Below, in pieces: positions 11,521-53,719 of a stretch of 64,000 bases of DNA. Origin of the DNA: Spisula solida. Lineage: Eukaryota > Mollusca > Bivalvia > Venerida > Mactridae. The stretch covers positions 7,896,501 to 7,960,500 of the forward strand of contig OX365952.1 of NCBI GenBank assembly GCA_947247005.1, written 5' to 3'. The notes below the pieces were generated by a model. It made no database searches. It saw nothing but the letters and a program-made list of their open reading frames with translations, and had not been told where the DNA came from. How positions within the stretch are numbered: the stretch's first letter is position 1; each line of letters begins with the position of its first letter. The position numbers and the translations under genes are program-made.

Positions 11521-14500
11521 GTAAGTTTCGCTTTCATTTAAGCTGTTATCTGCAAAGTCGCGAAATCTGATGACATTGCGATTTTCATTTCACTCATTGA
11601 CAGTTTTTGAGGCGGTTAAGGGGATGAAGGTTAGTTTAATGTGTGAATATGTTTTCTTTATAATACTTACCTAGATCATATGTGGATAGCATCAACAATG
11701 ATGGCAGGAATCGCCCATTACCATGGAATCAATCTGATGGAAAATTCACCCCACCGCAAGTTACTATAGTTCATTCTTTTCATACACTGTCGTTCTTTAG
11801 GATAGTTTACCAAGCCCCATAGTCCTCCAGTCAGACCTAGAGGGGTTTAAGAATGATCTTAGCCGCTCCTTTATCTCAAACCTCCACTGATTATGTGAAC
11901 AGTGAACAGTAAACCTGAGAAGTCAAGTCGACCTTATACTCCTTGACTTCTCAAAAGCCTTTGATATGGTCAACCATGAAAAATTACTCTACAAACTTCA
12001 CTATTATGGAATCAGAGGAAATACTCTGAGATGGATCAAAGGCTTTCTAGATAACAGATCACAGTCTGTAGTTGTCAATGGCTCCACATCCAGCACCATA
12101 CCAGTCTCCTCAGGTGTTCCCCAGGGTTCGGTCCTAGGACCGCTTCTATTTCTCATTTACATAAATGACCTCCCTGAGTCAGTTCAATCTTCCAAAGTGC
12201 GTCTCTTTGCTGACGACACAGCTATCTATCTTGCTCTTTCTGTTGCCTCTCACTCCAGCGTACTCCAACAAGACTTAAACCGGCTCCAACAATGGGAAAC
12301 AAAGTGGGACATGAAATTTAATCCATCAAAATGCCAAGTCATCCACATCACCAAAAGAAAAACAGTCATCCCAACACAATATACACTACATAACACAATC
12401 TTAGAATCAGTAACTTCAGCAAAATACCTAGGAATTACAATATCAAATGACCTCAATTGGAACACACACATAAACAACATCACAAAGAAAGCAAATCAAA
12501 CACTAGGATTTCTCAGAAGAAACATAAAAGTACATTCAGAAAAACTAAAAGCAACAGCATACAAAACACTTGTTAGGCCCCAACTTGAGTACAGCTCCTC
12601 TGTCTGGTCCCCACATACAGCTACCCTCATTGAGCAACTTGAGGCCATACAGCGTAGAGCTGCTCGTTGGACCAAGCGAGACTATAGTCGTACGTCCAGT
12701 GTCACAGACATGATGACTACCCTAAACTGGAGACGCCTTGACCAACGACGTATCGACCAACGACTGACTATGCTACACAACATCTTACATGACCGGGTTG
12801 CTATCCCACGTCCAAACTGTCTCATCCCTAGCACCCGGTCCTCACGCACATCACACTCTCAGACATTCCAACAGATACATGCAAAAACAGACTACTATAA
12901 ATTCTCCTTCCTCCCTAGAACAATAATACACTGGAACTCCCTACCCCCTGACATCATTGACCTTCCCACACCCGAGTTCAGCACGGCTGTTAGCCGTATT
13001 GAACATGCCTCTCCCTAAATAATACCTGCCCTGTTTTTAACCTATTTTTAACCTTTCTTCTTTCTCACATCTTTTATACTTTTATTTCTTATCCTTATTA
13101 ACATTCTTTGTCAGTTTGACGCGTGTCAAAGCCTAAGTCCCCAGCAGGGGTTTGGCTATCAGGAAGATAGATAGATAGATAGTTGTTTTAAGCAGCTTTT
13201 AATCTAGGCAATGTTGGCAGTGTCTAGTCATCCGGCAGCAAAATTATTGAAGTTTTCTTTCAATACTTTTATATTACTTCTATCTCACACCTGCCGTGCA
13301 CCTGCTAGTTCACCCATTAGGGGCATCAGCATTATGAATAGAAAGAAAGGAAAAGGCACATCACTCATCAGTATGATTGTAGGTTTCTTATTCTAGCTTA
13401 TAATATATGAGGCAACAGATCGTTACAGAAGGGCAGAATTAATTTCACAATTATTTAATTTACTCCTGCATCAATGCCATCACACATCTGGGTTGAGGCT
13501 AAAATTGCCATGCAGGATCAATGCAATTTTTAAGATGTCCCTTATGTCTAAAGAGCTCCTCACTAAAATTTGTGGAAATTGCATTTGAAAAATATTATAA
13601 ACTGTTTCATAGCCACATAGAACTAGGGTTTGTAGATTAACAATTTTACGGAAAGCTCTTAAGTACCGAGAACTGGATAGGGCTTTGTCACTTGACCACT
13701 GCACCAACCTCTGATAATGTTATTATAGATGATATGAACATGGGTAAAAGCCGTTTCTGGCATTCTGTATTGTCTACACTAAAAGTAGACTACTCTTGTT
13801 TGGAAACAGAACAGTTTCTGGAACAAGAAACTACTCTGGATGGAAAAATATTTCCTCCACTTCAATTAAGTGTCTTAAATAATGTTTATCATACATCCAA
13901 ATGTGATTTACCTGGATCTTTGAACATCTTCTTGGCCTTTAGCTATCTTGGCTCCTTGAATAAAGTTTATCTCATTGAGGTTTCGAAGCGAGTGCATCAT
14001 CAACACACTGGTTTTAACTTCCTTGGATTCCAGTTTTCAATGTTAAGTGGAGTTTTTGAACTGGTTTATAGATGTTGCAGACACCTAGATTCGGTCTTCT
14101 GATTATATATAGTTCGGAACATGTCTTTATCCAAGTATTCAAACGACCGGTGCACAAGACCAAGAATTATCTGGGATTTCATTGTGATGTTTTTAACTGC
14201 TCCTCAAAGTTGTCTTTCTCAGATGAAACTGAACTATCCTTGTTTGATCATTTTCCATTTGCATCAATCATATTTGGATAATAATTATTACTATAGTCTG
14301 TGTCCTTAGAACCCAAATACATCACTGTACACTTATTTGTGATAAATTCCAGTAGTTACACCAATTGCACAAATTGTCTAGATTGTTATGCAGTTTGACA
14401 CATTTTGATTGGTCGAAAACACTAGAGTAAATCTCCTGTCGCAGCACACATTTAATATTATTTAATGTTTATGTTAAACAAGTTATCTATTATTTGTTTC

Positions 14501-17500: not shown

Positions 17501-20500
17501 AGATCATTCTTAAAACAAGTGTCAAGATATGTTATTCCCCCACATGCATGTAGCGAGTTGATTCTGTGCTGGATGGATCTCACAAAGTTTGTCTGCGCTT
17601 GTATTCCTTAACAATTGGTCAGATTTAAATGAACATTCTCAGTAATACTTTGGAGCCTAGTTGTTCATATTGTCACAAACTTAAGGTTGACTATTTTTGC
17701 CCGAGTTTTTGTGTGAGTAGGAGACATAATGTTTTTGTGTCAAAAACCCTTCCAGTTAATTCCATTTCTCATCTACTCTCATTTAATTAATCACGAAACA
17801 ACTAAAATCCGCAGCCATTTCTCTGTAACTAGCTGGTAGAATTTCATGAAACTTAAACTAGCATACTGGGATGATGCCCGTCAAGTTTTTTTTCTGATCA
17901 ATAAATAATTCTGGTTGCCATGGCAACCGATTGGAAAAACTTAAAAAAATCATAAAAAATCAACCACTGGCCAGATTTCAAAATAATTTTACAGAAATAG
18001 TTGTTGGGTGACCTTCTTACAAAATTGACATTTTTATCATGATTTGTCAAAAAACATGGCTGCCAGTTGATGGGGCTCATTTTCCCTTATATATAAATAG
18101 TAAAGTCTTTAAAAATCTTCTTCTAAAAGTACTGGTTGAATTTCATTATGAATTATTAACAATGTTCATTTGCTAATCCTCTATAAAAATAGCTAAAAGA
18201 ATTGAAATCTATAAATAACTCTGGTTGCCATGGCAACCGATTGGAAAAACTTTTAAAAACCCATATAAAATCAACCACTGGCCAGATTTCAAAATACTTT
18301 TACAGAAATACTTGTTAGGTGACCCTCTTACAAAATTGACATTTTTGTCATGATTCGTCTAAAAACAGTGGGTGGGGCTCGTTTACCCCTATATATAAAT
18401 AGTGAAGACTTTTATCTGCAGACTTGATTTCATCACAACTTGGTAACAATATTTCTTGAGTGCTCCATTCTATGAATAGCTAAATAATTGAAATTCATGC
18501 AGAACCATGGCAACACAATCAAGGTCCTGTTTGAATATTGTTTTTCTAGTTCAATGTGCTCAGGTGAGGGATACAGGGCCATCTTAGTACACTTGTTTTA
18601 TTCAATTTGGTCAATTTTCCTTAGAGTTACTGCCCTTGTACTGCCCTTGGTTTATTAGCTCACCTGTCACAAAGTGACAGAGTGAGCTTTTGTGATCACT
18701 CTTCGTCCGTCATCCGTCCGTCTGTCTGTCTGTCCGTCGTCCGTCCACAATTACTTGTGTAGACACTAGAGGTCACAGTTTCAGCTTAATCTTTATGAAA
18801 CTTGGTCACAATGATCATATCAACAAAATCTAGGTCAATTTCGATATCGGGTCATCTGGGGTCAAAATCTAGGTCACAGGGTCAAATCATAGAAAAACCT
18901 TGTGTAGTCAGTAGAGGTCACAATTTTGGCCTAATCTTTATGAAACTGGGTCACAATGATCATCTCAACAAAATCTAGGTCATGTTCGATATCGGGTCAT
19001 CTGGGGTCAAAAACTAGGTTACAAGGTCAAATCATAGAAAAACATTGTGTAGTCATTAGAGGTCACAATTTTGGCCTAATCTCTATGAAACTTGGTCACA
19101 ATGATCATCTTAACAAAATCTAGGTCAAGTTCGATATTGGGTCATCTGGGGTCAAAAACTAGGTCACAAGGTAAAATCATAGAAAAACCTTGTGTAGTCA
19201 CTAGGGGTCACAATTTTAACTTAATCTTTATGAAACTTGGTCACAATGATCATATCAACAAAATTTAGGTCAAGTTTGATATCGGGTCATCCGGGGTCAA
19301 AAACTAGGTCACAAGGTCAGATAATAGAATAACCTTGTGTAGTCGCTAGAGGTCACACTTTTGGCCTAATCTCTATGAAACTTGGTCACAATGATCATCT
19401 CAACAAAATCCAGGTCAAGTTCAATATTGGGTTATCCGGGGTCAAAAACTAGATCACAAGGTCAAATCATAGAAAAACCTTGTGTAGTCAATAGAGGTCA
19501 CAATTTTGGCCTAATCTTTATGAAACTTGGTCACAACGATTATCTCAACGAAATCTAGGTCAACTTCGATATTGGGTCATACGGGGTCAAAAACAAGGTC
19601 ACAAGGTCAAATCATAGAAAAACCTTGTGTAGTCACTAGAGGTCACAATTTTGGTCTAATCTTTATGAAACTTGGTCACAATGATCATCTAAATGAAATC
19701 TAGGTCAAGTTTAATATTGGGTCGTCCAAGGTCAAAAACTAGGTCACATGGTCAAATCACTTCAATATGTCATTGGGTCTAAATGTGATGTAAAATATAA
19801 AGCATAAGACAATATAAAAACCTTGTACATGCAATAGAGGCTACCATTAGGGGTGCATGAACTACTAGGACAGGTGAGCGACCTATGGCCCTTTGGGCCC
19901 TCTTGTTGACTAATTTCATCTAATAACTAGCGGGTAGAATTTCATGAAACTTAAAATAAATATGAACAACTATACTGTGATGATGCCGGTGAAGTTATTT
20001 TTATCGGTCAATTTTCTGTTGAGTTATTGCCCTTGATTTAGTGACAATTGTTGTCTGATGGAAGCTTACATTCCAAACTGTGCAATGAAATACTGATAAC
20101 CTGTAGGCGGGGGATATTAATTCAACGAATTTGCTTGTTTTTATTTATGGTCAATTAGAATTTCAGATACATTGTAACTTTAAACGTTGATTTTTAACTT
20201 TTAAAGGTACAGTTTGAATTTTCTGGTCAAAGGGAGGTAACTCTTCCAAAATTGCATTTTAATTCAAAAAGTGAGTTATTATAAACTTAAATTGGGCTTT
20301 ATTCTTATCATTGGTTTCTTTATTTCTGTCTCCATGATAAAAACATACACTTGAACATGAACTTGATTAGGAAAGAGGATACATAGCTGCATTAACAATC
20401 TGATAAACACCCGATGAACACTCAACAAAAACGTGTGACATTAGCTTTTGCTGATGGCATCATTTGTTTATTCTGTTTGTGAAAAGTGTTGTCAAATTGT

Positions 20501-27115: not shown

Positions 27116-30100
27116 CTTTTAGCTCATCTGATTTTTTAAAAAAGATGAGTTATTGTCATCACTTGATCGGCGTCTGCGTTGCAAGGTTAAGTTTTGTGTT
27201 TAGGTAAACTTTTCTCATAAATTTCTTCTCAGAAACTGCTTGCCTGATTTGAATATAATTACCAAAGATCAAACACATAATGGGCGAAATATAAACCCAT
27301 CTTCGCTATATTTGACCAATGGTTGCTTTAAATTAATCAAAATATCTCGAGGTTTAAACGCATTAAATATTCAAGATGGTGGCGATAGCGGCAAAACAAT
27401 CAGAACGGTCTGTTCGGCATTTATCGCTACTGATGTACGCCGATCGCCATATTTCTTTTCAAAATGGCGGCTCCTTATAAAAGGAAACTAAGCTAAGTGT
27501 CATTTCCATTCTTCCGTATTCTTTGATAATTCCATATCTATGTTGCTTGGCTGACCCTCTACCAAATTCCGAATTTTAATGTTGATGGTTGAATAACATG
27601 GCGGCCAGGGACGGGGCTTCATCTCAGAAACTGTTGCCTGATTTCAATATAATTCCACAGGATTGTTCCTTGAGTGACCCTCTACCTAATTTCTGTGTTT
27701 ATGTGTTGAAAAATAATCACTTCCAGGGGTGGGGCTTGAACATGTTTACGTTGGTAGACTTGGTACTCAGGTGAGCAAACTAGGACCATCATGGCCCTCT
27801 TGTCTCATACACTATGGGTGCTATTGTTTGCAGTTAATACCTGACCATGTCAAGCAAGACCCATACCTCTGATCTGCCTTTTTCAAGAGTTATTGCCTCT
27901 TTCCTGATAAGAAGATATATTGGTGAAGTTTTATGTTTCGGTAACCTTTTCCATAAAAAACTAAGCTATTGCTATACACATTTGCACCATCAATACCTCA
28001 CCTTTTTTAAGCAAGACTCATAACCCTGCCCTACTTTATGCAAGGGTAATGGGCCTTTTTAGCTATCCTGAGCACATAGTGCTCAGTGTGAGCTATTGTG
28101 ATTGGTCTGTGTCCCTCGTCCGTCCTTCGTCAACAATTTTTTCAAACATCTCCTCATTAACTACTTGACCAATTTTAAAGAAACTTTTCTGGAATGATGA
28201 TAGGATGGTCCTCTTTCAGATGCATAATCTTTATTATAATTTGATAAAAAACATGGCCGCCAGCGGGCGGGGCTTGTTTACTCAATATGAACTTTGAAAT
28301 TCTTCTTCTCAGAAACTGCTGGCTCGATTTCAATATAATTTGACAGATATGTTCCTTTGGGGCCCTCTATGAAATTCGTAATTTCAACATTGATTTTTTT
28401 ATGTCCACCGTCCGTCGTCCATCGTCCGTCCTCCGCCGTCAACAATTGGACTGATAACACTCTAGAGGTTACAGTTTTAACTTAATCTTTATATGTTTGT
28501 CACTATGAAATATAAGTCAAGTTTGTAACTAGGTCATCTAGGGTCAAAAACTTGGTAAAATCAAAGAAAAACCTTGTTAACACTCTAGAAGTCACATTTT
28601 TGACATAATCGTTATGAAACTTGGTCACAATATGAACCTCTATCAAATCTAGGTCAAGTTTGCAACTTGGTCACATGGGGTCGAAAACTAGGTCACAAGG
28701 TCACATTGAAGAAAAACCTTGTTAACACCCTAGAGGTCACATTGTTTAATGAAAGTTGGTAACAATGTTTGTCTCTATGAAATCTAGGTCAAGATCGTAA
28801 CTGGGTCATCTGGGGTCAATAACTAGGTCACTAGGTCAAATCAAAGAAAAACCTTGTTAATACTCTAGAAGTCACACCGTTGACATTATCTTAATTAAAC
28901 TTAATCACAATGTGAAACTCTATGAAATCTAGGTCAAGTTCGCAACTGGGTCACTAGGGGTCAATAACTAGGTCACTAGGTCACATTGAAGAAAAACCTT
29001 GTTAACACTCCAGATGTCACATTTTTACATAATATAAATGAAACTTGGTCACAATGTGAACTTTTATAAAATCTAGGTCAAGTTCATAACTGGGTCATCT
29101 GAGATAAAAAACTAGGTTACCAGATTACGTCAAAGAAAAACCTTGTTTAAGCTCTAAGAGGTCACATTTTTTACCCCATATATATAAAACCTGGCCATAA
29201 AGTGTGTACGGTATTCGTAAAATCTACATCAAATATTAAGGTCATATCAAATACTGATTCTGCCTTAACTGCTAGTCATCAGGTGAGCGATTTAGGGCAA
29301 CAATGGCCCTCTTGTTTAAAGATATTTCTTGTTTGTATATGATTGAAACGACTAGTACAATCTTTCATTCCAGATTGTAGTGGTTTGTTTGGTTAATTTG
29401 ACTGTCACTTTTGATGGTGTAGACTGCTCAGATCTTAGCACTGACGTAAGTACAAACATATTTATAATAATAAACATATTCATTTTCAAACTGGCTGTTA
29501 CACAGTGTTGTTTCGGCCGACCAGTAATTAATTATTCAATCAAAGAGCAGATCCATCAATTTGTCAGACGGATTGGACCAGCTAATTGTTTCCAAGGGGT
29601 CATTGGACCAGCTCTGGAAGGGAGAAACATTTAGCCCTTACATTCTTGTCGCATTATAATATAATTTTAGATTAGACCACATTTGTGCCGACATTCCAGA
29701 ATGGGGGAGTGGATCCAGCCTTGGGCTTAGCTTAATTAGGTCTGAATCTCATAATCAATGCTGCTCAGTAGCCTAGTGGTTGAGCGTTCGCTTCGAGCGC
29801 GGAAGGCCTCGGGTTCGATCCCTGGCCGCGTCATATCAAAAAGTAATAAAAATGGTACCAGAAATTCCCTTGCTAGACGCTCAGCATAAAAAGGAAACTG
29901 GCTTCTTTTCTCTCATACCCTCATGGCGATGTATAAAACCAGGAATGAGGTGTCGAGAGTGATTAATATAAGTTGGAAAAACTTGTTTCACAAACGACCT
30001 TAAATAAATTAGTATAAACTAATGCTGCTCGTCCACTCTTCACATACTCTTGTAATTACAAATTGTCCCTTTGGCACAACAAGGTAAATTGTTCTCACTT

Positions 30101-37117: not shown

Positions 37118-37441
37118 TACGAAAGACCGGTACTGACAGTTTAACTTCACGGATTCACAATTTCAGCTTCATAATTGCAACTTCACGGTTTCGTGATTTC
37201 AACTTCATTAATTTACAAACTTATCATCTTCACGAGTTCACAATTTTAACTTCATACATTCACGATTTCAATTTCAAATACTAAACGATTTCAACATCGA
37301 GAATTCTTGAAATTGAAATCATGAAGTAGAAATCGTGTATGCTTGACGTTGAAAACGTGAATTTGTGTAGTCAAAATCGTGAATTCATGAAGTTAAAATC
37401 GTGTTTTCATGAAGTTTAAATGGCACTACCGGTCTTTCGTA
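37118..37441. mobile_element. long foldback element with AACTTCAYGATTTC units, TA target
   Basis: TACGAAAGACCGGTA at the left and TACCGGTCTTTCGTA at the right, with TA at both borders (37118-37119, 37440-37441). Both halves consist of short units such as AACTTCACGG, TTCACGATTTC and TTCATGAATTCACG, inverted relative to each other, so the whole 324 bp can fold back. Confidence 0.75.
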
Positions 37442-37791
37442 TATCCATAATGTGCTTAAAGGCAATAGTGCTAAGATGAAATCTATATCAAGAGCGCTCC
37501 CCTTAGTTTTCGGTTTGTAAAAGTTTATTTAAACTAGTGAACAAGTACATTGTATTTAAACCGTCTTGAAAAAGTATCAACCACGTACATTTCACGGAGA
37601 CCAACTTTTTGAAGCAAGTTTCATGATGATCGAGTTTTCCCTAGAGACCAAGTGACCTAGTTTTTAACTTGTTTCAACATTCATGTACAAAAACGATCAG
37701 AACAAATTACAAGAGCAGATGAAAAGTATGGCGTCAATGTAAAATTTAAACATACTAGTAGTACATGACGGAAAGACGACAGACACCCAAA
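37442..37791. other. element interior between foldback and LTR element
   Basis: Short HINE-like phrases (GACCAAGTGACCTAGTTTTT) near 37640; otherwise nothing. Confidence 0.35.
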
Positions 37792-37935
37792 TGTCACAGG
37801 GTGAGAAAAATGTGCAACCAGACCGGGGCTCGAACCCGGGACCCTTCGCTTACAGGGCGAATGCTCTACCGACTGAGCTAGCCGGCTGCCTACACACGTC
37901 CTCACCCATACTGTGAACAGGTTCAGACCGTGACA
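37792..37935 (-). repeat. TRIM LTR, inverted copy
   Basis: Exact inverse of the two plus-strand LTRs as far as I can read. Confidence 0.9.
37815..37887 (-). tRNA. tRNA-like sequence in LTR (anticodon loop CCTGTAA)
   Basis: See 38091-38163; identical on the minus strand. It is probably part of the LTR element and not an independent tRNA gene. Confidence 0.5.
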
Positions 37936-38042
37936 TACTCCCCCGTCATAATGAAATTCGTCCCGAATTTCTGACAGGTCTAGAGAACAAGGTAAACATG
38001 ATCTCGGAGAAATACAGTCACGGTCCCCCGTTGGGCGCCATA

Positions 38043-38186
38043 TGTCACGGTCTGAACCTGTTCACAGTATGGGTGAGGACGTGTGTAGGCAGCCGGCTAG
38101 CTCAGTCGGTAGAGCATTCGCCCTGTAAGCGAAGGGTCCCGGGTTCGAGCCCCGGTCTGGTTGCACATTTTTCTCACCCTGTGACA
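38043..38186 (+). repeat. TRIM LTR, middle copy
   Basis: TGTCACGG...CCTGTGACA, 144 bp. Internal domains lie on both sides in opposite orientations. Confidence 0.9.
38091..38163 (+). tRNA. tRNA-like sequence in LTR (TGT anticodon if read canonically)
   Basis: A full cloverleaf can be drawn: acceptor AGCCGGC/TCTGGTT (one mismatch at the base), D arm GCTC/GAGC, anticodon stem TTCGC/GCGAA with loop CCTGTAA, T arm CCGGG/CCCGG. Pol III boxes are excellent: A-box TAGCTCAGTCGG and B-box GGTTCGAGCCC. The anticodon position reads TGT (threonine), but the usual U33 is C, and no CCA logic applies. It lies centrally in an LTR, so a role as internal promoter of the element is inferred. Confidence 0.55.
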
Positions 38187-38188
38187 TT

Positions 38189-38206
38189 TGGCGCCCAACG
38201 GGGGAC
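38189..38206 (+). promoter_or_regulatory. primer-binding site of the TRIM
   Basis: TGGCGCCCAACGGGGGAC, the complement of a tRNA 3' end with CCA, two bases inside the LTR boundary. The inverse copy lies at 38022-38039. Confidence 0.8.
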
Positions 38207-38293
38207 CGTGACTGTATTTCTCCGAGATCATGTTTACCTTGTTCTCTAGACCTGTCAGAAATTCGGGACGAATTTCATTATGACGGGGGAGTA

Positions 38294-38437
38294 TGTCACG
38301 GTCTGAACCTGTTCACAGTATGGGTGAGGACGTGTGTAGGCAGCCGGCTAGCTCAGTCGGTAGAGCATTCGCCCTGTAAGCGAAGGGTCCCGGGTTCGAG
38401 CCCCGGTCTGGTTGCACATTTTTCTCACCCTGTGACA
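38294..38437 (+). repeat. TRIM LTR, right copy
   Basis: 144 bp, same as 38043-38186; followed by CAAA. Confidence 0.9.
38342..38414 (+). tRNA. tRNA-like sequence in right LTR
   Basis: Identical to 38091-38163. Confidence 0.5.
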
Positions 38438-38441
38438 CAAA

Positions 38442-40292: not shown

Positions 40293-41214
40293 AGCTCACC
40301 TGTCACAAAGTGACAGTGAGCTTTTGTGATCACTCGTCGTCCGTCCGTCCGTCAACAATTGGCTTGTGTAGACACTAGAGGTCACAATTTTAGCCTAATC
40401 TTTATGAAACTTGGTCACAATGATCATCTCAACAAAATCTAGGCCAAGTTCGATAATTGGTCATCTGGGGTCAAAAACTAGGTCACTAGGTCAAATCATA
40501 GAAAAACCTTGTGTAGTCACTAGAGGTCACCATTTTGACTTATTCTTTATGAAACTAGGTCACAATGATCTTCTCAACAAAATCTAGGTCAAGTTCGATA
40601 TAGGGTCATTCGGGGTCAAAAACTAGGTCACATGGTCAAATCATAGAAAAACCTTGTGTAGTCACTAGAGGTCTCAATTTCAACATTATCTTTATGAAAA
40701 TTGGTCACAATGATCATCTCAACATAATCTAGGCCAAGTTGATATTGGGTCATCTGGGTTTAAAAACTAGGTCACTAGGTCAAATCATAGAAAAACCTTG
40801 TGTAGTCACTAGTGGTCACAATTTTGACATATTCTTTATGAAACTTGGTCACAATGATCATCTCAATAAAATCTAGGTCAAGTTCGATATTGGGTCATAT
40901 GGGGTCAAAAACTAGGCCACAAGGTCAAATCATAGAAAAACCTTGTGTATTCACTAGAGGTCAATGTTTTGGCCTGATCTTTACGAAACTTGGTCACAAT
41001 GATCATCTCAACAAAATCTAGGTCAAGTTCGATATTGGTTCATCTGGGGTCAAAAACTAGGTCATTAGGTCAAATCATATAAAAGCCTTATGTAGTCACT
41101 AGAGGTCACAATATTGGCCTAATCTGTATGAAACTTGGTCACAGTGATCATCTCAACAAAATCTAGATCAAAGTCGACAGGTGAGCGACCTAGGGCCCTT
41201 TGGGCCCTCTTGTT
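40293..41214 (+). mobile_element. HINE/Pearl-like element, AGCTCACCTG subfamily
   Basis: 5' hairpin AGCTCACCTGTCAC-AAA-GTGACAGTGAGCT; six or so units of about 143-145 bp; 3' CAGGTGAGCGACCTAGGG, palindrome GGGCCCTTTGGGCCC, TCTTGTT. Very close to 18657-19907. Confidence 0.8.
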
Positions 41215-42275: not shown

Positions 42276-44317
42276 ATGTATTATATATGCATACACAATC
42301 ACAATATAATGGTTACACAAGCACGCATCAAACCACTCATTGATAGACAAGTTCCCAGAAACATACAATTATTTAACAAGGCAAATTGGGACGACTTCAT
42401 ACACTTCATTAACATCTCAAAGGTCAACGTCATTAAAGATGCAGATGCTATCCCAGTAGAGGATCTCTGGATCAGGTTTAAAAACACCATCAACGAAGGC
42501 ATTACAAAGTTTGTCCCAACCAAAAAACTCGGAAGCAAAAAGCTCTTGCCATGGGTCACACAAGACATAAAAAGGTTAATAAGAAGAAGGGACAAATTCT
42601 ATCAGAAAATGAAGCACCAGAAAGGTCAAACTAAATACACAGATATGTTGGAAAAATTCAAGACCATCAAACACCTCATCCAGAAAAAAATAAAAAAATC
42701 CTGAACAAGCAATTCCAATCAGTCTTTTCAGGTGTCTCACCTCTACCCCTGCCCCAGCTTTGTAGGAATGTCCTTGGGAACTCCAAATACCCGACCATGC
42801 CCGAAATAGAAATAGACCCAAATGGTGTCCTTAAGTTACTCCAAAACCTAAAAGTGGATAAGGCTGCTGGCCCGGACTTGATCAAGCCTATAGTACTAAA
42901 GGAACTCCGCCATGAGATCCTTGATATCATATCGCTTATCTTCCAAAGATCCCTGAATACTGGTCAACTACCGTCCGACTGGAAGAAAGCAAACGCAGCC
43001 CCTCTATTCAAGATAGGTGATAATAGTGACCCTGCTAATTATCGACCTATATCACTCACTTGCATTCTGTGTAAACTCCTTGAACACATAATTGCATCCA
43101 GCCTATCCACTCACTTCACCAAACACAACATTCTCTATGAGCTTCAACACGGGTTCCGTGAAAAACGGTCCTGTGAGACTCAGCTCATAGAGTTAGTTGA
43201 TGATCTAGCTAAGGATCTCTCCTCAGGTAAACAATCTGACCTTATCTTATTAGACTTTAGCAAAGCGTTTGATAAGGTCAACCACCAGAAACTACTATAC
43301 AAACTCCGAGAACACGGTGTCCCCAGTCAAATTCTATCCTGGATCGAGTCATTTTTAGTAGGCCGATCACAGTCAGTAGTGGTAAATGGTCACACTTCTG
43401 ATCAGGTTCCTGTAACTTCAGGTGTCCCACAGGGGTCCGTCCTGGGACCATTGCTCTTCCTGCTTTATATAAATGACCTTCCTGACAAACTCACTTCCCA
43501 GGTACGGCTGTTTGCTGATGACACAGCTGTTTACCTCGTAGTCACCTCCCTCTCAGATTGCCATGCGTTACAAAATGACTTGCTAAAACTTGAAAACTGG
43601 GAAAGTCAATGGGATATGGAATTTAACCCCAGTAAGTGTCAGGTTCTCCATATCTCAAGGAGCAGAAACCCAATCAAATTTCCGTACATGCTCCATGGTC
43701 AAACTCTTTCCTCAGTCACAGATGCAAAATACCTTGGCGTCGACATCAGTGATGACCTCAGATGGAACACCCACATAAACAGAATAACAACACAAGCAAA
43801 CAAAACACTAGGCTTCCTAAAACGTAACATCAAAACAAAACATGAAAACATAAAATCTCTAGCATACAAAACACTAATAAGACCACAACTAGAATATGCA
43901 TCACCCGTTTGGTCACCACATACACAGGTCAACATTAACAAGCTGGAAATGATACAAAGACGTGCTATTAGATGGGTAAAAAATGATTACTCCCGATATA
44001 CCAGCGTATCGGACTTACAGAATACACTAGGATGGAGCTCCCTTGAGAACAGACGCCTTTCCTCCAAGTTAGTCTCATTCTACAAGATTTGTAATAATCT
44101 TGTATGTACATCTCACCCGGCCTATTTAGAAGTCCCCACCAGGTCGACAAGGCACATGCACCCCAATAGTCTCCGCCCCATTCATGCCAACTCGGACTTC
44201 TTCAAGTTTTCCTTCTTTCCCCATACCACAATCCTGTGGAATAGGTTACCTTCCCACATCGCGACCCTGACTGATCTTGAATTATTTAAGCAGTCAGTGG
44301 CCAGGATTTATCAGTGA
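42276..44317 (+). CDS. LINE ORF2 C-terminal half (reverse transcriptase), one frameshift
   Basis: The first frame (42276-42704) is the linker between endonuclease and RT (ANWDDFIHFIN, LPWVTQDIKRLIRRRDKFYQ). A single base change of phase in the A-run at 42687-42700 leads into the second frame, open to the stop at 44317. RT motifs in order: LLQNLKVDKAAGPD, NYRPISLTCILCKLLE, LLDFSKAFDKVNHQKLLYKL, SGVPQGSVLGPLLF, FADDTAVYL (catalytic), FNPSKCQVLHI, KYLGVDISDDLRWNTHI. A conserved C-terminal domain follows (LEMIQRRAIRWVKNDYSR). One indel from intact, so a recent insertion or an assembly error in a homopolymer. Confidence 0.9.
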
Positions 44318-51913: not shown

Positions 51914-53719
51914 ATGACTGAAGGTGGTACATGGCTGGGCTCATGGCTGAGATCATTCAGGAATGCATTCAGTTGGCTTAAAGCATCTGAGACATCTGGT
52001 GGTGCTGATGAATCATTTTGTGACCCTTGTAAAAGTGACGGTGAACGGATATATGCGGAAGGTTATTGCCAACCCTGCGACGAATACTTGTGTGGAACTT
52101 GCATTGAAGTACATAGAAAACAAGAGATCACTAAAGCTCATGTAATCTTGGACAAGGAACACATGCCTAGTGGGCAAGGATCCGTAGGCAACCAAGATAT
52201 CTATGTTGATGTATGCAAAACACATCATCCTAAAATCATACGATTTAACTGCAAAGCTCATGATGAACCTGGTTGTGGACATTGTATGACCCTAAAACAC
52301 ACGACCTGCACGACAGACATGATACAGGATGTTTCTGATGGTTTCCAGGAAACCGAAGAATTCATTGATATAGATCAACAACTCCAACAGCTTTACCAGG
52401 AACTTCATGAAATGGAAGATGAGCTTAACAACAACTTAAAGAACTTGGATACATCATACAGCAACATTCTACACAAAGTTGAATCAGCTCGTAAACAAAT
52501 AAATAAATACCTAGATCAAATACAGACACAAATAACTGATGAAGCTGCTCAGATGAAGACAAAAGACGAAAAGGAACTGAAAACAATACAAGCAGAAAAT
52601 CAAACGATGAAAGCAGAAATTGAAGGCATGCTTAAAACATTGTATGACTCTGATGCTAATGTCAATTCACTATTTGTAACAATCAAGCAAGCCAAACACA
52701 GCCTGGTTACCATGGAAAAGAAGGTCAACGAAATTAATCAATCACAGCAAGAACAACAACTACAATATAAACTTATTATTTCCAATGAGATAAAACATAT
52801 AGTTTCAGCTAAAATACCACTTGGAAAACTGTCAAGGAAAGCCCTACCACAGAAAATCAGGACAAAGACACAAGATGAAAGCACACCAAAAACAACTACA
52901 CTAGATACTACAGCAACATACAACAGAAGCATTAATGTGAAGTGTAGGACAGATAATAAGGACTGTTTACTCAGAGCCTGTACACTTCTCAGTCCCGACA
53001 GAATGGTGGTCACTGACGAGAACAATCAGAATGTTAAACTAATAGACACAAGTAACAATACAGTACTATTAACGTACAGTACATCAAGTGGACCATGGGG
53101 AGTAGATGCACTCAGTACAAATACGATTGCTGTTGCACTCCCTCGTGGGAGTAAAATACAAATACTTGATGTGACATTACCAATAAGCGTACAGCGTGAG
53201 ATAAACGTCCAAGATGCTTGTTTCGGTGTTGCATACAAAGACGAGAAGTTTGCCGTCAGCTTTATGGATCCTGCTGCTCGAGTTGACATACTAGATATAC
53301 ATGGCAAGGTATTACATACGATAGAACCACCGGATGAATTACTACAGCGACCCTTCCATATCATATTTGGACATGACAACGATACTGTAATAGTATCAGA
53401 CTTTCATACCAACGAAGTTAGTGTTATTACATTTAGTGGAGAATTGTTCCCTACATACACACATGATAAATTAGGACATCCAAATGGGATAGTGCTTACA
53501 TCAGATGGTGTAATGTTTGTATGTAACTGGGGTGGTAGACGTATACATGTTGTATCGCCAGACTTTCTGACCAGTAAAATCATTATCCATGATGACGGCC
53601 ATGTAGGTCTTCCTGGGAGTTTAACATACTGTGCGGTGAATCAAACACTGTATATTTGCAATAGTGTGGTCTATGGAAGGCTGTACAACCAAATACATGT
53701 GTATGATTTGAATGTTTAA
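51914..53719 (+). CDS. TRIM-like B-box protein with C-terminal beta-propeller, intronless
   Basis: 601 aa. After a tryptophan-rich N-terminus there is no RING. A first B-box spans C36-H76 (CDPC...CQPC..YLCGTC..VH). A second spans C101-C132 (CKTHHPKIIRFNCKAHDEPG, CGHC). A long coiled coil covers about 145-295 (QQLQQLYQELHEMEDELNNN). A low-complexity linker (TPKTTTLDTTATY) is followed by an NHL/SMP30-like propeller of about 250 residues (GPWGVDALSTNTIAVALPRG, GHPNGIVLTSDGVMFVCNW). Bivalves have large expansions of such genes, related to TRIM45/56/71 and linked to innate immunity; without a RING a ubiquitin-ligase role is not assured. The single coding exon hints at expansion by retroposition or tandem copying. 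Confidence 0.9.
   Translation: MTEGGTWLGSWLRSFRNAFSWLKASETSGGADESFCDPCKSDGERIYAEGYCQPCDEYLCGTCIEVHRKQEITKAHVILDKEHMPSGQGSVGNQDIYVDVCKTHHPKIIRFNCKAHDEPGCGHCMTLKHTTCTTDMIQDVSDGFQETEEFIDIDQQLQQLYQELHEMEDELNNNLKNLDTSYSNILHKVESARKQINKYLDQIQTQITDEAAQMKTKDEKELKTIQAENQTMKAEIEGMLKTLYDSDANVNSLFVTIKQAKHSLVTMEKKVNEINQSQQEQQLQYKLIISNEIKHIVSAKIPLGKLSRKALPQKIRTKTQDESTPKTTTLDTTATYNRSINVKCRTDNKDCLLRACTLLSPDRMVVTDENNQNVKLIDTSNNTVLLTYSTSSGPWGVDALSTNTIAVALPRGSKIQILDVTLPISVQREINVQDACFGVAYKDEKFAVSFMDPAARVDILDIHGKVLHTIEPPDELLQRPFHIIFGHDNDTVIVSDFHTNEVSVITFSGELFPTYTHDKLGHPNGIVLTSDGVMFVCNWGGRRIHVVSPDFLTSKIIIHDDGHVGLPGSLTYCAVNQTLYICNSVVYGRLYNQIHVYDLNV

Follow-up and report, generated by a model that had tools for sequence, protein, structure and literature searches.

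A Helenus-type TRIM arranged as a head-to-head dimer with a common central LTR

The DNA at positions 37792-38437 of the window, the whole stretch of 64,000 nucleotides that was analysed, is a head-to-head dimer of two retroelement units with a common central LTR, and not the one element that an earlier note had placed there. Its parts lie in the order LTR(-), internal part(-), LTR(+), internal part(+), LTR(+), and it is because the two 107-bp internal parts run in opposite orientation that we read a dimer rather than a single element. The best explanation is that a Helenus-type TRIM was inserted as a head-to-head cDNA dimer, which we consider probable. Taken by itself, the identification of a real and young Helenus-type TRIM is close to certain. 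This kind of element, a TRIM with a tRNA in its LTRs, is already published as Helenus; only the joining of the copies is unusual, and the central junction is the part worth following.

The three LTRs are each 144 bp long, run from TGTCAC to GTGACA and show zero differences in an alignment, just as the earlier note had described them. Repeat comparison places LTR B at 38043-38186 (plus strand), as the common centre of the dimer, and LTR C at 38294-38437 (plus strand); LTR A, identical to both, occupies 37792-37935 on the minus strand. The same comparison delimits internal part 1 (37936-38042, minus strand) and internal part 2 (38187-38293, plus strand), which are identical at 106 of 107 positions and differ solely at the central junction. 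One unit measures 395 bp and consists of an LTR, a 2-nt spacer, a PBS, the internal part, the polypurine tract GGGGGAG, the dinucleotide TA and an LTR; the two polypurine tracts, read from the sequence, are found at 37938-37944 (minus strand) and at 38285-38291 (plus strand), the latter followed by TA. A non-coding internal part of 107 bp had been noted before, and its length and lack of coding capacity stand (there is no open reading frame of at least 150 amino acids at the element, and a gene would not fit into 107 bp), but there are two such parts in opposite orientation. The whole is a near-palindrome with 264-nt arms that are 98% complementary, where both PBS ends face LTR B and both outer ends are U5 ends. 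By direct reading, CAAA stands on either side of the entire dimer (37788-37791 and 38438-38441), forming one 4-bp target site duplication; given the local base composition, the chance of such a flank match is about 0.006 at this one locus. Identical LTRs fit recent movement, as had been proposed, and we take the element to be young.

The PBS, TGGCGCCCAACGGGGGAC, does not directly follow the LTR, as was claimed earlier, but starts 2 nt past it. Sequence comparison locates it at 38189-38206 (plus strand) in internal part 2, after the spacer TT, and at 38023-38040 (minus strand) in internal part 1, where the spacer is TA. Integrase trims two spare nucleotides from each LTR cDNA end, and the 2 spare nucleotides present at each internal end are what it would trim off. 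This 2-nt trimming of cDNA ends is described for HIV-1 in a portion of PMC1905944. The PBS is of the tRNA-Lys type: in a by-eye comparison, 16 of its 18 positions are identical to the tRNA-Lys1,2 PBS printed in a passage of PMC1084362. A short motif, GACCGTGAC, overlaps the PBS end at 38204-38212, is mirrored in internal part 1 and is the reverse complement of LTR positions 2-10; judged by eye and by a fold of the 395-nt unit, the PBS region could pair through it with the start of the 3′ LTR in RNA.

Every LTR contains a tRNA-like sequence with intact A- and B-boxes, which bears out the earlier description. ARAGORN calls tRNA-Thr(TGT) in all three LTRs (37814-37887, minus strand; 38091-38164 and 38342-38415, plus strand) and makes no other call in the window, while the Rfam tRNA model matches the same three sequences at 51.5 bits each, against a gathering score of 29, and matches nothing else in the window. 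Each of the three has box A, TAGCTCAGTCGG, and box B, GGTTCGAGCCC. A covariance alignment (positions in our own numbering) reveals a non-standard acceptor-stem pair, C7-U66, and a C at anticodon-loop position 33; the sequence is thus not a canonical tRNA-Thr cloverleaf with U33 and a fully paired acceptor stem, even at an overall 51.5 bits. U33 of the tRNA anticodon loop is near-invariant, and its replacement together with the C7-U66 mismatch would argue against a working tRNA. A promoter role fits these sequences because the promoter boxes are kept while the tRNA is imperfect, although a simple promoter-only view is weakened by a score so far above the gathering cut-off, and the tRNA may still be a working one. 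When the LTR is treated as RNA, its fold is more stable than 200 of 200 shuffles (z = -4.0), and the lowest-energy fold is a long hairpin without a cloverleaf; the isolated 74-nt tRNA-like sequence folds close to a cloverleaf.

Downstream of the tRNA-like sequence lies TTTTT, which resembles a pol III terminator and starts 4 nt beyond the ARAGORN tRNA end in every LTR (read from the sequence at 37806-37810 on the minus strand, element position 126-130, and at 38168-38172 and 38419-38423 on the plus strand). The sense strand of the 395-bp unit holds no further run of at least four T. Since the 5′ LTR has its TTTTT as well, a full-length pol III transcript needs read-through. Judging from the sequence, most pol III transcripts begun in the 5′ LTR should stop there, and genomic RNA would depend on read-through or on a different promoter. 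The terminator-like run within the 5′ LTR is therefore the puzzle of a pol III TRIM.

We assign the element to Helenus on three described structural features, each of which it has: LTRs that contain a tRNA-derived sequence with both boxes, A and B (three of three), a small LTR element without coding capacity that has a PBS and a polypurine tract (unit of 395 bp, internal part of 107 bp), and a 4-bp target duplication (CAAA/CAAA, one locus). The consulted text of Kojima 2024 (PMC10886601) defines Helenus as TRIMs with tRNA-derived sequence in their LTRs, found in fungi, animals and a plant, with 51 families from pteriomorphian bivalves and, for this TRIMp3 group, lengths of 311-1263 bp. It also gives 4-bp target duplications for animal Helenus families, lists tRNA-Lys among the bivalve primers, counts seven bivalve families able to encode tRNA-Thr, argues for a promoter role of Helenus tRNA sequences in general and proposes Gypsy as the helper; it treats pol III transcription and Gypsy mobilisation as unproven. 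The present element agrees with that account in unit size, boxed tRNA in the LTR, PBS, polypurine tract, tRNA-Lys primer, tRNA-Thr and 4-bp duplication, and differs from it in being a head-to-head dimer; the assignment is by description. In the main text of that paper, the word 'tandem' is present and the words 'inverted', 'dimer' and 'head-to' are absent. The earlier note's reading of a TRIM with tRNA-derived sequence in its LTRs thus suits the anatomy, whereas its proposal of a new animal analogue of Cassandra gives way to a match with a published group.

The evidence on how the two copies were joined comes from the central junction. On the plus strand, the left copy ends in ...GGGCGCCA, the exact PBS end. 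Next comes TATGTCACGG, which is the right copy's U3 end, TA retained; string comparison assigns the dinucleotide at 38041-38042 to the right copy's untrimmed U3 end, adjoining the left copy's PBS end. The 32-base string predicted by cDNA joining, consisting of PBS end, TA and U3 end, is present as an exact match. During reverse transcription of LTR elements, synthesis of the first cDNA strand halts at the PBS boundary, and the 5′ LTR is gained only afterwards; one partner accordingly resembles this halted intermediate and the other a full cDNA. Autointegration was considered as the origin of the dimer and rejected, as the junction retains TA whereas integrase joins trimmed ends; the same argument speaks against integrase as the maker of the inner join.

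A cDNA origin would involve the following events. The tRNA-like pol III promoter would drive synthesis of an RNA that runs past the TTTTT in the 5′ LTR and ends at the one in the 3′ LTR, giving a repeated R region of about LTR positions 40-130. A tRNA-Lys would prime at the PBS, and the proteins of an autonomous Gypsy element would copy and insert the TRIM. One cDNA would have halted at the PBS boundary, still lacking its 5′ LTR, and a second, full cDNA would have been attached to it through an untrimmed U3 end, either by end ligation or by the reverse transcriptase jumping end to end. The joined product, with two U5 ends, could then have been trimmed and inserted by integrase with a 4-bp duplication, and the LTR ends, which mirror each other over 6 bp, may have aided integrase in using U5 ends.

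The strongest competitor begins with a tandem Helenus array, LTR-int-LTR-int-LTR, produced by template switching or by recombination between LTRs; one complete unit would later have been inverted at its TGTCAC...GTGACA ends, with one point mutation in addition. The identical order of parts results when it is the first unit of the array that is inverted, and tandem TRIM arrays are on record: the texts consulted report them for Helenus LTR-11_DR (PMC10886601), as long arrays for bivalve TRIMs (PMC6934838) and, together with a discussion of template switching, for Cassandra (PMC7215508). However, the inversion predicts AA instead of TA at the junction (plus strand), and this string is absent from it; the inversion must also have been exact at both LTR borders and be followed by a mutation at that very base. 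The two predictions differ by one base, which is the sole difference between the copies. If a random mutation had produced it, the probability of the only change in 251 positions (107 internal and 144 LTR) falling there, and with that base, would be about 1/750, a figure that assumes TT in single elements as seen in internal part 2 alone. The junction argument is that one base, so its support would be lost if a subfamily had TA ahead of the PBS or if the base arose by point mutation, and the dimer evidence is from one locus. On balance, we judge the inverted array to be an unlikely origin.

An assembly or library artefact, in which a single element became a fold-back chimera, is a good deal harder to reconcile with the data. 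Fold-back chimeras are a known type of artefact, and the layout here is nearly palindromic, with long and highly complementary arms. Yet a fold-back read would have mirrored the flank too, while the outer flanks here differ and nonetheless carry matching CAAA, and the break points fall exactly at the PBS and LTR ends; we hold such an artefact to be very improbable. A small group of ordinary tRNA-Thr genes within duplicated DNA, with no retroelement, would account for three above-threshold tRNA calls and is scarcely credible given the exact LTR borders, the PBS, the polypurine tract, the 4-bp duplication, and a C33 and C7-U66 mismatch that are unusual in a working tRNA.

The head-to-head dimer can be compared with three known systems. 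Plant Cassandra elements are likewise gene-less, with LTRs that include the pol III promoter of a small RNA gene, and form tandem arrays, but their LTRs contain 5S rRNA, whereas here the sequence is tRNA-like, the duplication is 4 bp and the window is of animal type; no 5S rRNA-derived sequence is present, as Rfam returns only tRNA across the whole window and for LTR B at E-values up to 1. The biv-TRIM elements are also small, gene-less LTR elements with tandem copies in bivalves; in the consulted part of PMC6934838, the authors could not identify a canonical PBS, in contrast to the clear PBS here, and we set the two apart by description. In retroviral 2-LTR circles, LTR cDNA ends are joined without integrase, by end joining. 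Integrase-independent joining is the shared feature, and the difference is that here a PBS end meets a U3 end, head to head, in an inserted product. Among the titles and abstract openings listed from open-licence literature, none describes a head-to-head LTR or TRIM cDNA dimer, and two of the papers use 'head-to-head' in other senses; this is weak evidence of absence.

The group to which this young element belongs was not described until 2024, and the joined structure seems to record a PBS-halted cDNA, a reverse transcription intermediate that normally leaves no genomic trace. We offer as a tentative conjecture, with the odds against it, that head-to-head dimers arise regularly as by-products when very short pol III LTR elements are reverse-transcribed. 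It is similarly speculative that the reverse transcriptase or an end-joining enzyme links a PBS-stalled cDNA to its partner's untrimmed U3 end and that integrase accepts two U5 ends. If dimers do arise in this way, they would record an otherwise unseen step of LTR reverse transcription, and their tRNA-like promoters, facing both ways, could yield double-stranded RNA. A frequent dimer would tell how very short LTR elements multiply in arrays, and a host outside Pteriomorphia would widen the molluscan range of Helenus.

A sensitive blastn search found no further significant copy of the LTR or internal part in the window (next best E at least 0.06). No helper element was found in the window either, and the PBS core, with up to 2 mismatches allowed, occurs twice, both times inside the dimer. 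None of the five element patterns matched a viral contig collection, from which the element's own or near genomes may have been left out. In a genome contig collection with the same possible omission, GTGACANNTGGCGCCCAACG had 2 matches, which are taken as chance because only the 20 positions of the pattern itself align with the element in both.

The G+C content of the window varies from 33 to 40% in 4-kb steps. Two reading frames, at 11966-13018 and 42797-44317, encode RVT_1 reverse transcriptases, of non-LTR type by look. For the second, 7957 of 7971 candidates scored were matches, and the 120 matches listed include five labelled Candidatus Thiodiazotropha, one labelled Sedimenticola and two named only 'hypothetical protein', the others having no name. 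Candidatus Thiodiazotropha is tied to lucinid clams, and the relatives with these two bacterial labels are probably animal host DNA in symbiont assemblies, which makes a bivalve the likely source of the window. A 601-aa protein at 51914-53719 has a B-box match just below the cut-off (23.8 versus 24.1 bits) and 2 metagenome matches, and a 236-aa reading frame at 1177-1887, without a Pfam match, resembles a tyrosine recombinase fragment by eye. Arrays with a related-looking unit of about 145 bp lie at 18754-19759, 28503-29171 and 40363-41171. Just left of the dimer, at 37118-37441, lies an inverted repeat, diverged and with short repeats inside it, which may be an older mobile element of a hairpin-like kind.
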